A stretch of DNA of 40,180 bases. Source: Acidimicrobiia bacterium. GTDB taxonomy: Bacteria > Actinomycetota > Acidimicrobiia > Acidimicrobiales > AC-14. Below are positions 35,987 to 40,122 of this stretch, piece by piece (within the stretch, counting starts at the first letter, position 1; the number at the start of each line of letters is the position of its first letter). The position numbers were made by a program, and so were the translations under genes. The notes beneath the pieces were generated by a model, which saw only the letters and a list, made by a program, of their open reading frames with translations, had not been told where the DNA came from and did not search any database. The DNA lies in assembly GCA_023265025.1 (NCBI GenBank), contig JAHFUP010000045.1:1-40180 (forward strand), read 5' to 3'.

Positions 35987-36504
35987 GCTACAACCCGAAT
36001 CCTCAGAATCAGGGGTGGGTGACGTGCCGGGATCGGCTGCTGGCGACGATTGCCAAGTGGCAGGGTCTCTACAGTTCCCAGAAGCCTCAACGCGTTGTCA
36101 TCGACTGTGCGGCCGCCCCGCGCTACGGGAGCAGCTTTGCCAACCCGGAGGATCGGGCGGTGAGTGTGACGTTCACGGCGGGCAAACACGTCAACCGGAC
36201 GGTGACCGTCGACAAGTTCCCGCGCCCGGTGGACAACCTCTGGGCGCTTGCTGTGGGCCTCGATGATATCCGGATGAATGAGCTGCGCGGCCTCGACACG
36301 GTCGCTGCTCAGGTCTACCAGCAGATCGCGGCGCCGAAGCGGGAGCGTGACCCGTTCGAGGTGCTGGGGGTGCGTGCGGACGCGGACCTGGACGTGATGG
36401 AGGCGGCGTACAAGGCGAAGGCGCGGCGTTTGCACCCGGACGCGGGTGGGAGCGTGGAGGCGATGACGGAACTGAACGCGGCGTGGGAGAGGGTGAAGGC
36501 GTGA
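35983..36504 (+). CDS. J-domain protein, DnaJ-like cochaperone
   Basis: A 173-residue protein. Residues about 123-173 form a J domain with DPFEVLGVRADADLDVMEAA, the HPD motif at 151-153 (RLHPDAGGS) and a final helix NAAWERVKA. The HPD loop is the part of J proteins that stimulates Hsp70 ATPase. The N-terminal 115 residues are a separate, unrecognised domain (VTCRDRLLATIAKWQGLYSS, DRAVSVTFTAGKHVN). The phage may recruit host DnaK for assembly, replication or host takeover; target inferred only. It starts at GTG on a GTGA overlap. Confidence 0.85.
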   Translation: MSYNPNPQNQGWVTCRDRLLATIAKWQGLYSSQKPQRVVIDCAAAPRYGSSFANPEDRAVSVTFTAGKHVNRTVTVDKFPRPVDNLWALAVGLDDIRMNELRGLDTVAAQVYQQIAAPKRERDPFEVLGVRADADLDVMEAAYKAKARRLHPDAGGSVEAMTELNAAWERVKA

Positions 36505-37430
36505 CGAAAATCGAATGGGCGGATGACAGTTGGAATCCTGTGAAAGCGCGACGGCGGGTGGTGGGACCGACGGGTGAGAACGTGAAGTACGGCCACGCGT
36601 GTGTGCGGGTGTCGCCGGGGTGTACCCGGTGCTATGCGGCGACCATGAACCGGCGACTCGGGACGGGGCTGGACTACACGGTGCCGGCGATGGAGCAGGT
36701 CGAGATGTACCTCGACGAGAAGGTGCTGCTGGAGCCGTTGAGGTGGCGGAAGCCGCGCCGGGTGTTCGTGTGCTCGATGACGGACCTGTTCGGGGAGTGG
36801 GTGCCGGACGAGTGGCTGGACCGGATCTTCGCGGTGATGGCGCTGACGCCGGCGCACACGTTCCAGGTGCTGACGAAGCGGGCGGTGCGGATGGAGGCGT
36901 ACGGGAGCCCTGGTCAAGTCCGGGACGTTCGAGTGGTCGATGCAGCGGCGGCCATGGGATACGCCTTGCCGTTGCCCCACATGTTTCACTGGCCTCTCCC
37001 GAACGTGTGGGCGGGGGTGAGCATCGAAGACCAACCAGCGGCGAATAACCGCATCCCGCACCTGCTGAGGACGGTCGCGGCGGTACGCTGGGTGTCTGCC
37101 GAACCGCTCCTCGGGCCGGTGGATTTCACCAGAGTGCGGTGCCCTGCCGATGATTGGGCAGAAACTTGCAATGCGCTCAGCGGAACGTGGCAGAACATTG
37201 CCGGCGACGATTGGCCGACCAAGGATGGAGCCCGCATCGATTGGCTCGTCACGGGTGGTGAGAGCGGGCCGGGGGCGCGGACGCTTGACCTGGCATGGGC
37301 GAGGAGTCTGCGGGACCAGTGCGCCGTGGCGGGAATCCCGCTCTTCGTAAAACAAGATTCCGGTCCTCGACCGGGGATGCAAGGACGGATTGAAGACGAC
37401 CTCTGGCGAGTCAAGGAGTTTCCGCGATGA
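36501..37430 (+). CDS. Gp37/Gp68-like protein (DUF5131)
   Basis: A 309-residue protein of the phage Gp37/Gp68 family. It begins MTKIEWADDSWNPVKARRRV, with Cys34, Cys41 and Cys44 (C-x6-C-x2-C, ending PGCTRCYA) near the N-terminus, then RVFVCSMTDLFGEWVPDEWL, QVLTKRAVRM, NVWAGVSIEDQPAANNRIPH, RWVSAEPLLGPVDF, WLVTGGESGPGARTLDLAWA and FVKQDSG. The three clustered Cys and barrel-like repeats recall iron-sulfur enzymes, though the spacing is not the usual radical-SAM one. Substrate is unknown. Length and motif order are complete for the family. Confidence 0.88.
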   Translation: MTKIEWADDSWNPVKARRRVVGPTGENVKYGHACVRVSPGCTRCYAATMNRRLGTGLDYTVPAMEQVEMYLDEKVLLEPLRWRKPRRVFVCSMTDLFGEWVPDEWLDRIFAVMALTPAHTFQVLTKRAVRMEAYGSPGQVRDVRVVDAAAAMGYALPLPHMFHWPLPNVWAGVSIEDQPAANNRIPHLLRTVAAVRWVSAEPLLGPVDFTRVRCPADDWAETCNALSGTWQNIAGDDWPTKDGARIDWLVTGGESGPGARTLDLAWARSLRDQCAVAGIPLFVKQDSGPRPGMQGRIEDDLWRVKEFPR

Positions 37431-37492: not shown

Positions 37493-37752
37493 CCACTGCT
37501 GACCCGGCCAACGAGAGGCTGAACGAGGCCGTGGCACTGGCGATGGGATGGACGCTGGAAAGCGGAACCAGCAGTCATCGCCTATGGCATCGCCCGAAGG
37601 AATCGGGACATATCTGCTCTGACTACTGCTTTGAGCACGTCAGCCGTTTGCCCTGGGCCACGGATGTGCAGGCCTGCATCGACGACCTGCTCCCGGTGAT
37701 GCGGGCGAAAGTGCCGGGGAAGATGCTCTTGCTGGAGGACGACTCGTGGTAA
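37489..37752 (+). CDS. Small phage protein, unassigned
   Basis: An 87-residue protein with ribosome site GGGAGGAA before ATG 37489. It opens with a helix (DPANERLNEAVALAMGWTLE), then a His/Cys part (SHRLWHRPKESGHICSDYCF) that could hold one metal, then a helix with WATDVQACIDDLLPVM. The pattern matches a small helical protein often encoded near methyltransferases in phages, without known function. It overlaps the next gene by 7 bases. Confidence 0.66.
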   Translation: MTTADPANERLNEAVALAMGWTLESGTSSHRLWHRPKESGHICSDYCFEHVSRLPWATDVQACIDDLLPVMRAKVPGKMLLLEDDSW

Positions 37753-38048
37753 GCCATACTCATCACCCTGCTGGATGGAGAGCCGCAACGTGGGCCACGG
37801 AAGGTGACAGCGGCCAGTCTGCCCGAGCCGCCATCGAAGACCTGCGAGCCAGGCTCGAACCCCCACCGGCACCGCCGCCGAAGCACGAGCATGTGTGGCA
37901 ACCGTGGGAGACGATTTGGGACACTCGGGGTGCGTTCAGTGATTACCGGCGCCACTGCCGCATCTGCCCCTTATGGGAGACAACGGACGCGCTGGCGCCG
38001 GCGGGGGCGGTCTCACGGTCGGACGACCTGGGGGCGGGGCGTGACTGA
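37746..38048 (+). CDS. Small His/Cys-containing protein before the C5 methyltransferase
   Basis: A 100-residue protein from GTG 37746 behind GGAGGACGACTC. It has a helical middle (QSARAAIEDLRARLEPPPAP), then KHEHVWQPWETIWDTRG and YRRHCRICPLWETTD, in which His, His, Cys and Cys could bind zinc. It ends inside the methyltransferase start (8 bases shared) and its TGA overlaps the ATG of the second reading frame. No family was recognised. Confidence 0.62.
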   Translation: MVSHTHHPAGWRAATWATEGDSGQSARAAIEDLRARLEPPPAPPPKHEHVWQPWETIWDTRGAFSDYRRHCRICPLWETTDALAPAGAVSRSDDLGAGRD

Positions 38049-39273
38049 TGTGGGTGTACTGCCCGAACGCATCCTCTCCCTCTGTTCCGGGGCCGGCGGA
38101 CTCGACCTTGGCGTACACATGGCCCTGGGCGGACGTGCTCGCACAGTCTGCTACGTGGAACACGAGATCACAGCCGCCGCAGTCCTGGCGGCGCGCATGG
38201 AAGATGGCTCCCTGGATGCAGCACCTGTTTGGACAGACATCCACGCCTTCGACGGTGGCCCGTGGCGCGGAAGAGTGGAGGGAGTCATTGGTGGTTTCCC
38301 CTGCCAGCCCTTCTCCGTCGCCGGAAAGCAGCGGGGTGAGGCCGATCCCCGGCACCTCTGGCCTCGCATCGCAGAGATCGTTCGAGATGTTCAACCCCAA
38401 TGGTGCTTCTTCGAGAACGTGCGAGGGCATGTGCGGATCGGACTGCGAACAGTGCGAAGTGACCTTCTCCGCATGGGTTACTCAGTTCATGCAGGCATAT
38501 TCTCGGCGGCGGAAGTCGGCGCGCCACACCAGCGGGAACGGCTCTTCATCTTGGCTTACTCCCGACACGGAGATGGATGCGGGACCGAATGGGCAAGCTG
38601 GGCTGAATCAGCAAGTCGCCAAGAACTGGCCGACTGCGATGGGTTTGGGAGCCGGGTCGAAGCCGGAGAACAACCTGCCGGACAACTCGCCGCTTCACCG
38701 GGCCGCCAAGAACTGGCCTACCGTGACAGAGGACGACGCGAGCAATCTGAAGAGGACCAGCGGAGGGTTCAATTCATTGACCCGGACAGCCTCGCAATGG
38801 CCGAGTCCGCACGGGAACGCATCGACGGGGGCCGGGGCGCAGGGTCGCGACGGGGGGCTGAACCTGCAAACGGCAACAGCGCACTGGCAGACGCCCGCTT
38901 CGGACAGCTTCCGCAGCCGTGGTGGCGACCGGAAAGCCGAGATGGGACTGGATCAACAGGCTCGCGCGATGTGGCAGACACCATCGGCGAACGAGGATGC
39001 GGCAGGGACGCTGGATGGCAAAATGCAGTTCATGCTGACCCACCAAGCCCGTTCCCACCTGGCCCCGGAGACCTTGCAGGATGGCAGCGAGTCCTTGCCG
39101 AGCGGCCAGACCTCGCCCCGGCGCTTGCTCAACCCGAGATTCGCAGCCTGGCTGATGGGGTGGGACCCGGCATGGACCTCTCTCGCGCCGCTCAGCTCCG
39201 CATCATCGGGAACGGAGTCGTGCCCCAACAGGCCGCCTACGCCCTTCGGCGACTGATGGAGGCGCTGACATGA
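38041..39273 (+). CDS. dcm: DNA cytosine-5 methyltransferase
   Basis: A 410-residue C5 methyltransferase that moves a methyl group from AdoMet to cytosine. Visible motifs are I (ILSLCSGAGGLDLGVH, about 11-26), IV with catalytic Cys88 (GGFPCQPFSVAG), VI (FFENVRGHVR, 123-132), VIII (HQRERLFIL) and X (RIIGNGVVPQQAAYAL from 387). Between VIII and X lies a target-recognition part with repeated LAD/VAD triplets, unusually low in third-position G/C. The same DNA encodes a long frame shifted by +1. No restriction partner is present. The catalytic identity is certain. Confidence 0.93.
   Translation: MTDVGVLPERILSLCSGAGGLDLGVHMALGGRARTVCYVEHEITAAAVLAARMEDGSLDAAPVWTDIHAFDGGPWRGRVEGVIGGFPCQPFSVAGKQRGEADPRHLWPRIAEIVRDVQPQWCFFENVRGHVRIGLRTVRSDLLRMGYSVHAGIFSAAEVGAPHQRERLFILAYSRHGDGCGTEWASWAESASRQELADCDGFGSRVEAGEQPAGQLAASPGRQELAYRDRGRREQSEEDQRRVQFIDPDSLAMAESARERIDGGRGAGSRRGAEPANGNSALADARFGQLPQPWWRPESRDGTGSTGSRDVADTIGERGCGRDAGWQNAVHADPPSPFPPGPGDLAGWQRVLAERPDLAPALAQPEIRSLADGVGPGMDLSRAAQLRIIGNGVVPQQAAYALRRLMEALT
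38048..39256 (+). CDS. Overlapping +1-frame protein within the methyltransferase gene
   Basis: A 402-residue frame that runs inside the methyltransferase gene for nearly its full length. It starts at ATG 38048 on the stop of the preceding gene and has repeated W-(P/Q)-T elements (KNWPT, HWQTPASDSFRSRGGDRK, MWQTPSANE) and a C-terminal LLNPRFAAWLMGWDPAWTSL. I recognise these as recurring in an uncharacterised phage protein type. In two 60-base samples of the second half its third positions are 16/19 and 14/19 G or C, against 11/20 and 8/20 for the methyltransferase frame, so it behaves like a coding frame. Function unknown; expression unproven. Confidence 0.55.
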   Translation: MWVYCPNASSPSVPGPADSTLAYTWPWADVLAQSATWNTRSQPPQSWRRAWKMAPWMQHLFGQTSTPSTVARGAEEWRESLVVSPASPSPSPESSGVRPIPGTSGLASQRSFEMFNPNGASSRTCEGMCGSDCEQCEVTFSAWVTQFMQAYSRRRKSARHTSGNGSSSWLTPDTEMDAGPNGQAGLNQQVAKNWPTAMGLGAGSKPENNLPDNSPLHRAAKNWPTVTEDDASNLKRTSGGFNSLTRTASQWPSPHGNASTGAGAQGRDGGLNLQTATAHWQTPASDSFRSRGGDRKAEMGLDQQARAMWQTPSANEDAAGTLDGKMQFMLTHQARSHLAPETLQDGSESLPSGQTSPRRLLNPRFAAWLMGWDPAWTSLAPLSSASSGTESCPNRPPTPFGD

Positions 39274-39389
39274 CTGACACGCCCTACCACGATGACGGCC
39301 AGGCGCGGTCCTACCTGGGGGATGTGCGTGCGGTGCTGCGCGAGATGGCGACGCGGCGCATCGGTGAGCAGCTGGGGCTGATGGCATGA
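39270..39389 (+). CDS. 39-residue protein
   Basis: ATG 39270 overlaps the methyltransferase stop and the TGA overlaps the HNH start (ATGA at both ends). The frame MTDTPYHDDGQARSYLGDVR and following LREMATRRIGEQLGLM is short, helical and soluble. It is the linker gene between methyltransferase and packaging endonuclease. No family was recognised. Confidence 0.58.
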   Translation: MTDTPYHDDGQARSYLGDVRAVLREMATRRIGEQLGLMA

Positions 39390-39709
39390 CGCGCCGCCGG
39401 CCCTTCGCCTCGGTCGCCCGCCCGTCGTCGTCCAGCGCGCAAGGCTACGGGGCGGCTCACCGGGCGTGGCGGACGGCTGTGCTCGATCGCGACCCGTTCT
39501 GCCGCTGGCCGGGCTGCGCGGCGTTGGCGACGCACGCGGACCACATCGTGCCGTGGCGCCAGGGTGGGGCGCAGTTCGACGTGGCGAACGGGCAGGGGCT
39601 GTGTGCAGGGCATCACAATGTGAAGACGGCGCTGGAGGTGGCGTCGCGGCGTGGCGGTGGCGCTGGGCGTAGCCGGCCGCGCGAGGCGCACCCGGGTGCG
39701 GTGCCGTGA
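39386..39709 (+). CDS. HNH endonuclease of the packaging module
   Basis: A 107-residue nuclease. Residues about 19-80: QGYGAAHRAWRTAVLDRDPF, CRWPGCAALATHADHIVPWR with the catalytic His pair, then ANGQGLCAGHHNVKTA. The Cys pairs C-x4-C and C-x2-H fit the zinc-stabilised HNH of HK97 gp74 type, which works with the terminase during DNA packaging. In the circular order it lies two genes before the methylase and small terminase, which supports that role. No sign of being a mobile insert: it keeps the operon overlaps. Confidence 0.9.
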   Translation: MTRRRPFASVARPSSSSAQGYGAAHRAWRTAVLDRDPFCRWPGCAALATHADHIVPWRQGGAQFDVANGQGLCAGHHNVKTALEVASRRGGGAGRSRPREAHPGAVP

Positions 39710-40122
39710 CGCTGGAGATCATCGTGATGATGGGGCTGCCGGGCTCAGGCAAGACGACCTGGGCGATGCGATGGATAGCTGCCCATCCTGACTACGTTCG
39801 AATCAACAACGACGCCATCCGCTGGGCGCTCTTCCGCGAGCGTTACAACCCGGAGACGGAGACAGCCATCAAGCAGGCCCGCGTTCGGCTCATGCGCGAG
39901 GCGCTGGGCCAGGGCAAGAGCCTCGTCATCGACAACTGCAACATCACGGTGCCTTCGAAGCGTGAGATCATCGCCATAGCCGCGGAGTTCGGCGCTACGA
40001 CCCGCGTGGTGTCGCTGTTGGGGGTGGACGTGAGGGAGTGCATCCGCCGCGATCGACTGCGGCCATACCCCGTAGGAGCGACGGTCATCAGGATGTTCGC
40101 GCGCACGGCGGGTGTCGGATGA
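39706..40122 (+). CDS. P-loop kinase, polynucleotide-kinase-like
   Basis: A 138-residue P-loop protein. It has Walker A GLPGSGKT at residues 10-17, then YVRINNDAIRWALFRERYNP, a helix KQARVRLMREALGQGKSLVI with DNCN, and a lid-like RRDRLRPYPVG near the end. This is the plan of the T4 polynucleotide kinase N-terminal domain and related phage kinases that phosphorylate 5' ends of DNA or RNA. No phosphatase domain is fused. It may repair cut tRNA or nicked DNA; substrate not shown. The start at GTG 39706 overlaps the HNH stop. Confidence 0.85.
   Translation: MTLEIIVMMGLPGSGKTTWAMRWIAAHPDYVRINNDAIRWALFRERYNPETETAIKQARVRLMREALGQGKSLVIDNCNITVPSKREIIAIAAEFGATTRVVSLLGVDVRECIRRDRLRPYPVGATVIRMFARTAGVG

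Follow-up and report, generated by a model that had tools for sequence, protein, structure and literature searches.

The two-polypeptide C5 cytosine methyltransferase M.EcoHK31I (YGGCCR) has motifs I to VIII and X on its alpha polypeptide and motif IX on a smaller polypeptide, and M.AquI is a split C5 enzyme with its catalytic and specificity parts on two polypeptides (both from excerpts of PMC3404938). Kohl and co-workers showed that AUGUG is able to start both frames in Escherichia coli (excerpts of PMC9841429). The locus analysed here lies in a 40,180-base stretch of DNA from an Acidimicrobiia bacterium (contig JAHFUP010000045.1; hereafter the window), which carries tailed-phage genes including terminase, portal, head and tape measure and whose parent assembly measures 5.45 Mb. 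Two frames are open over the same DNA: alpha (38041-39273, frame 0), a C5 methyltransferase, and beta (38048-39256, frame +1), of 402 codons. Their coordinates in the initial annotation are confirmed, and both are genuine coding frames across about 1.2 kb. Comparison of their sequences makes it likely that they encode a two-subunit phage cytosine-C5 methyltransferase, with catalytic and specificity subunits in overlapping frames of the same DNA. The beta polypeptide of M.EcoHK31I is reportedly encoded within its alpha gene in a different frame (attributed to Lee, Kam and Shaw, 1995), and this feature is present in the window's family.

Composition of the alpha and beta proteins

Loci were gathered by similarity to beta, and in all 91 of them beta lies in the +1 frame of alpha. 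They comprise 80 viral contigs, seven phage records, three plasmid records and the window. The family profile (A1) had at least 143 relatives among the 600 pattern matches listed, of which 80 were kept; selected on +1 similarity and on a +1 motif, these 80 loci show the anatomy of the arrangement and not its frequency. Two other sets, selected on frame 0, are free of this bias. One holds the viral contigs matched by the alpha protein of an Escherichia phage, best 80 of 498; 16 of these had no motif pattern and were run separately (15 unique), and removal of six duplicates from the other 64 left 58 genes. The second holds six loci matched by the window's own alpha protein.

The roles proposed for the two proteins come from their alignment to single-chain enzymes. 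A profile of 14 methyltransferases related to gp68 of Mycobacterium phage VRedHorse has 453 columns. The alpha profile aligns to its columns 1-189 (probability 100%, E-value 1.3e-55) and that of 87 beta proteins to columns 266-436 (probability 97.9%, E-value 3.3e-13). The two profiles thus occupy successive column ranges, which indicates that alpha and beta are consecutive parts of one enzyme. The second protein, to which no role had been given, aligns with the target-recognition and motif-IX part of known single-chain methyltransferases. Homologues with free +1 stops and an intact Dcm, which had been expected to speak against a second gene, are indeed seen in the VRedHorse-like family. Its members read the target-recognition region and motif IX in frame 0, which fits the role proposed for beta. 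The features of the window are as follows, all on the forward strand.

38041-39273, forward strand: alpha, proposed catalytic subunit of a C5 cytosine methyltransferase; 410 amino acids from GTG 38041 (shorter if GTG 38050 is used), with motifs I to VIII, a linker and motif X
38077-38112, forward strand: alpha motif I (SLCSGAGGLDLG)
38290-38316, forward strand: alpha motif IV with the catalytic Cys (GGFPCQPFS)
38413-38421, forward strand: alpha motif VI (ENV)
38530-38547, forward strand: alpha motif VIII (QRERLF)
39052-39270, forward strand: alpha C-terminal part (FPPGPGD... through motif X); residues 341-410 of the window protein score 61.0 bits against the frame-0 profile of its relatives
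39199-39222, forward strand: alpha motif X (RIIGNGVV)
38048-38052, forward strand: ATGTG, the beta ATG at 38048 overlapping the alpha-frame GTG at 38050; a second alpha-frame GTG is at 38041
38048-39256, forward strand: beta, proposed as the specificity subunit; 402 amino acids (ATG 38048, stop 39254-39256), including the target-recognition region and motif IX
38552-39118, forward strand: target-recognition region of beta, in which W(P/Q/L)(T/S) recurs; alpha reads the same bases as a poorly conserved linker with LAD/VAD
39119-39184, forward strand: beta motif IX (RRLLNPRFAAWLMGWDPAWTSL), from comparison by eye with RRLTPRECARLMGF of E. coli K-12 Dcm

Alpha matches PF00145 (E-value 2.5e-32) over its residues 10-174 only. 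Motifs I, IV (PCQ), VI (ENV), VIII and X of this class are present in its single chain. The initial annotation had credited this frame with all main C5 motifs. Motif IX, sought by eye, and a conserved target-recognition region, sought with a profile, were not found in the alpha chain. The AlphaFold model of alpha is confident at about residues 11-170 and at 391-410, with a predicted local distance difference test score (pLDDT) below 50 at 196-240 and 265-331. It has an HhaI-like fold, aligning 216 of 327 residues to M.HhaI (2uyc_A; Z 21.4, rmsd 3.4).

The C-terminal sequences of beta, RRLLNPRFAAWLMGW and RRLLNPRFAAWLMGWDP, resemble by eye motif IX of E. coli K-12 Dcm. Residues L361, N362, P363 and L369 are invariant across 87 +1 proteins, a set partly chosen through motif IX itself. 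The W-(P/Q)-T elements noted earlier in this frame are found as W(P/Q/L)(T/S) at 38552, 38627, 38714, 38798, 38885 and 38972. Beta matches phrog_1008, labelled 'DNA methyltransferase', with an E-value of 4e-16 and three other phage families more weakly, and none of the Pfam and NCBIfam models matches it. The variable region is recognized as protein in the +1 frame: that of the window scores 74.4 bits against a profile of other +1 proteins, versus 12.9 bits for its frame-0 reading against the frame-0 profile. With leave-one-out profiles at 15 bits, 86/86 beta variable regions are recognized versus 9/54 of the frame-0 ones, the rows being mostly drawn from the +1-selected set.

Departures from the common layout are also found among the loci, designated here by L-numbers. 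In L039, L076 and L078 alpha ends past motif VIII and beta holds the target-recognition region, motif IX and motif X. In L015, L022 and L026 the frame-0 variable region is full of stops, while motif X, further downstream, is still read in frame 0 and is closely preceded by an ATG; these loci possibly encode a three-piece enzyme.

Stop codons and substitutions in the two frames

On the window gene alone, synonymous shuffling of frame 0 gives a mean of 2.86 stops in the +1 frame and none in 1.9% of shuffles, which excludes chance openness only weakly; the single +1 stop counted in the window's alpha is TGA 38042, located 5' of the +1 ATG. The relatives selected on frame 0 give a much stronger answer. 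The 58 unique genes have 83 stops in the +1 frame against 339 expected (+2 control, 1072 against 901), and the 15 further unique rows have 36 against 105 (+2 control, 227 against 205). The six relatives of the window gene, which are close kin of each other, have none against 22.9 expected (+2, 86 against 67.6). Openness of the +1 frame across these relatives is strongly beyond chance. The VRedHorse-like single-chain family shows no overall deficit, with 274 +1 stops against 289 expected.

The reciprocal test, in which the +1 codons of the variable region were shuffled synonymously, yields 0 frame-0 stops against 102 expected in 51 loci (third frame, 295 against 289), 7 of the 58 having been omitted (five without landmarks and two with a +1 stop). 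For 77 loci of the window's family it yields 57 against 343, all 57 in six loci (third frame, 468 against 454), 14 of the 91 having been omitted because a landmark was absent or the region too short. Alpha is thus kept readable through the variable region in most loci, its residues there mattering little. The low-confidence model of alpha in this region agrees with a frame kept open with little regard to its residues.

Substitutions locate the selection along the gene. Isolated changes were counted by codon position, and the derived ratios resemble those of nonsynonymous to synonymous changes (dN/dS) and do not come from a likelihood model. In the frame-0-selected family (946 pairs), 84-95% of changes in the first 90 codons fall at alpha position 3, as do 79-82% at the 3' end. 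In the variable region, 77-91% fall at alpha position 1, which is position 3 of beta, and codons 90-180 and 390-420 are mixed. The ratios for frame 0 and +1 are 0.04/8.6 in codons 0-90, 0.34/0.46 in codons 90-180, 2.16/0.13 in the variable region, 0.44/0.40 in codons 390-420 and 0.09/1.74 at the end. When disjoint pairs are taken, each sequence being used once, the +1 pattern appears in 24/24 for the variable region, 12/24 for codons 90-180, 0/25 for the start and 0/23 for the end. The window's own family, for which 35 of the 91 loci lacked landmarks as query, has the same shape, with 76% of changes at alpha position 1 in the variable region and 73% at alpha position 3 in the motif-X end. In the single-chain VRedHorse-like control, 74-97% of changes across the target-recognition region, motif IX and motif X fall at alpha position 3.

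These computed patterns show that both frames are under selection, each for a different part of the enzyme. The initial annotation had taken both frames as constrained: both are coding, but not equally over their full length, frame 0 being constrained at the start and at the motif-X end, +1 in the variable region and both near the junctions. Its hand counts of G/C third positions, 16/19 and 14/19 for +1 against 11/20 and 8/20 for the dcm frame, are exact on recount. Equal double coding over the whole length was also considered, and is rejected by the region-wise substitution patterns.

Start signals and alternative readings

In the window, beta starts with the ATG of ATGTG, and the same ATG overlaps the stop of an upstream open reading frame (37746-38048) as TGATG. 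Upstream of the window's starts lies a G-rich stretch in which a canonical Shine-Dalgarno sequence is not present. Overlap of the two starts is common in the window's family. In 54/63 loci they overlap or nearly touch, as (A/G)TGTG in 38/63 and NTG-N-ATG in 16/63. In a three-register scan of 65 loci, the expected register holds (A/G)TGTG in 42/65 and NTG-N-ATG in 17, whereas the other two hold (A/G)TGTG in 1 and 0 loci and NTG-N-ATG in none. A Shine-Dalgarno-like pattern is found in 42/54 of the family, which is weak evidence, the pattern being loose enough to count GGGG and GGTG. A second family has GGAG, then 8 nucleotides, then the beta ATG, all inside frame-0 codons, in 56/58 genes; arginine is encoded by AGG at the Shine-Dalgarno site in 44/58 versus 142/1597 elsewhere. 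A similar internal signal occurs in several other loci, though not in all. Computation thus shows the beta start signals to be conserved, and they indicate that the second protein could be translated independently.

In the arrangement that we propose, alpha would provide the cofactor and catalytic motifs I to VIII, a linker and then motif X, and beta the target-recognition region and motif IX. Both would be translated independently off one mRNA; where starts overlap or nearly touch (ATGTG, NTG-N-ATG), as in the window and most of its family, one ribosome-binding site could feed both frames. Alpha and beta may then assemble into a single enzyme of ordinary fold that probably shields the phage DNA from restriction. 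We infer translation of both proteins, their assembly, a specificity carried by beta and this protective role from the sequences.

Programmed frameshifting is the best of the alternatives and is unlikely. Ribosomes in frame 0 would shift to +1 near motif VIII and make one chain with motifs I to VIII, the target-recognition region and motif IX, and in some loci motif X. The single-chain relatives have the same order of parts, one +1 shift past motif VIII would complete the enzyme in L039, L076 and L078, and codons 90-180, around motif VIII, are constrained in both frames. However, upstream of any such shift the +1 frame has been kept open, with 48 stops against 181 expected from motif I to about motif VIII over 74 loci (+2 control, 490 against 507), the 17 of the 91 loci without landmarks being left out. 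The 63-locus group is conditioned on a +1 frame open before motif I (1 stop against 117), and the other 11 open later (47 against 64). Beta also has its own conserved start signals, and a second, backward shift would be needed in most loci, where only frame 0 holds motif X. The conserved overlapping starts, the internal Shine-Dalgarno signal and the AUGUG precedent lead us to favour two independently translated subunits rather than frameshifting, and we infer two subunits rather than a frameshifted fusion.

Beta could also be a real overprinted protein with a separate job, such as regulating the methyltransferase or countering host defence, and not a subunit. It is far longer than its target-recognition and motif-IX part, its N-terminal part is unaligned to the single-chain enzymes, and no Pfam or NCBIfam model claims it. 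Yet its C-terminal part aligns to the target-recognition region and motif IX of single-chain methyltransferases, and frame 0 has no visible motif IX or conserved variable region of its own, which makes a separate job distinctly improbable. That there is no second gene, the +1 frame being open through composition or methyltransferase codon use, would suit the GC content of the window (67.5%) and the shuffles of its gene that lack stops, but is barely credible and is rejected by relatives at 56-64% GC that are open against synonymous shuffles with a +2 control and by their +1-type substitutions.

Several observations weigh against the two-subunit enzyme that we favour. The sequences compared are related, so the counts are not independent events. 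In the single-chain family +2 stops number 273 against 342 expected for no known reason, so the shuffle null is inexact. In the window's family, from motif IV to motif VIII, 85% of changes fall at the frame-0 third position, and in the frame-0-selected family the +1 ratio over codons 0-90 is 8.6; the N-terminal part of beta is thus open with little amino-acid constraint, which would be unusual in a domain that is translated. No reliable fold was obtained for beta (pLDDT 56, predicted template modelling score 0.30), the model being too poor for a structure search, and its sequence has no match among solved structures at an E-value below 0.04. Two of the 58 frame-0-selected genes (L162 and L167) have a beta stop within the variable region, and L070 has a stop inside its beta frame. 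In L213, a relative of the window gene, it is alpha that has a stop in the variable region and beta that is intact, by real loss or sequencing error. Motif X behind the stops of L015, L022 and L026 is unexplained by a simple two-subunit model. In the single-chain genes L180-L211, short stretches around motif VIII follow the +1 frame in their evolution (columns 160-200 and 280-360 of the alignment), with +1 ratios of 0.08 and 0.31 against frame-0 ratios of 23 and 1.5.

Distribution and relation to known systems

Phages of Escherichia, Rhodobacter, Komagataeibacter, Tunturiibacter and Cylindrospermopsis provide the seven further phage loci with the arrangement. In the 18 annotated phage or plasmid loci that have it, the gene is listed in the beta frame in 8 and in the alpha frame in 10. 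The beta frame is annotated as the gene in L002, L003, L007, L011, L012, L096, L097 and L098, some being named methyltransferase. A similar +1 partner frame, containing the motifs PTP and MGxP, accompanies the 'dcm' genes L230 and L231 (each about 260 amino acids), which come from plasmids of Lacticaseibacillus and of the methanogen Methanomethylovorans; these genes were picked only as yardsticks for motif IX and not for their +1 frame. The alignments behind the structure predictions had 87 and 61 rows, taken from among the loci collected.

Among 50,697 phage records searched by tblastn with the window proteins, 1354 show relatives of alpha and 8 show relatives of beta; the beta protein of another locus finds 45. 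Among 296 genomes of the window's phylum, alpha is found in 3, its own genome included, and phrog_1008 in 6, at a threshold at which phrog_1008 missed the window's own beta; phrog_1008 is found in 0/14 control genomes. The viral contigs searched with the window's +1 protein alone gave no match, and 43 stretches matched in a scan of genome contigs with the alpha protein include no relative. The overlap had been called rare, a description that these loci do not support: all 91 gathered by +1 similarity and nearly all the frame-0-selected relatives share it.

Neighbouring genes in the window encode a phrog_2045 protein of unknown function (36483-37430), an HNH-like protein slightly under the Pfam cut-off (39386-39709) and a polynucleotide-kinase-like protein (39706-40122).

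Outside small viruses, few long same-strand overlaps with selection on both frames are known. The present overlap is large and recurrent, and its second protein has a likely function. If the two-subunit reading is true, annotated phage cytosine methyltransferases of this type miss half their enzyme, because databases keep one frame, and alpha expressed alone would appear inactive. We lean, with more reserve than for the enzyme itself, towards a wider view: methyltransferases in overlapping frames may be an ancient class with members in the phages, plasmids and prophages of both Bacteria and Archaea. Its subunits would share DNA and often one start site, swaps of recognition modules would take place in the beta frame, alpha having only to stay open, and the single-chain enzymes would be re-fusions or ancestors. 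Many database entries labelled as a single 'DNA methyltransferase', whichever frame they give, would in that case contain only half of the enzyme.

Searches of open-licence papers in PubMed Central listed no report of such an overlap in phage methyltransferases, and no such case was found in the excerpts of PMC3711429 and PMC5009743. As far as these searches show, what is new is how widely the arrangement occurs, how nearly complete the overlap is, that the target-recognition region lies in the beta frame and that the dual start is conserved. At the sequence level the locus resembles M.EcoHK31I, with motifs I to VIII and X in alpha and motif IX on a second polypeptide (PMC3404938, excerpts). 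In that enzyme the predicted target-recognition region is in alpha according to the same excerpts, whereas in the present family it is the beta frame in which the variable region evolves; beta also spans nearly all of alpha here, the starts overlap and many phages are concerned. L039, L076 and L078 are split at a point similar to that of M.AquI, with motifs I to VIII in alpha and the target-recognition region, IX and X in beta (PMC3404938, excerpts). The difference from M.AquI is that both proteins come from overlapping frames and that motif X of the window is in alpha and not on the second polypeptide with motif IX. The VRedHorse gp68-like single chains (L008; L180-L211) are homologous to alpha at their N-terminus and to beta at their C-terminus, but have the target-recognition region, IX and X all in frame 0. 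The ambiguous starts AUGUG and GUGUG of E. coli include the ATGTG of the window, and both frames are translated in some genes. The genes named in excerpts of PMC9841429 are pqiA, tamA and narQ, the alternative frame of pqiA having 15 residues, whereas the second frame here encodes a long conserved protein. This 2022 study names only a few examples, and the locus described here would be a conserved natural case of two-frame initiation at ATGTG.

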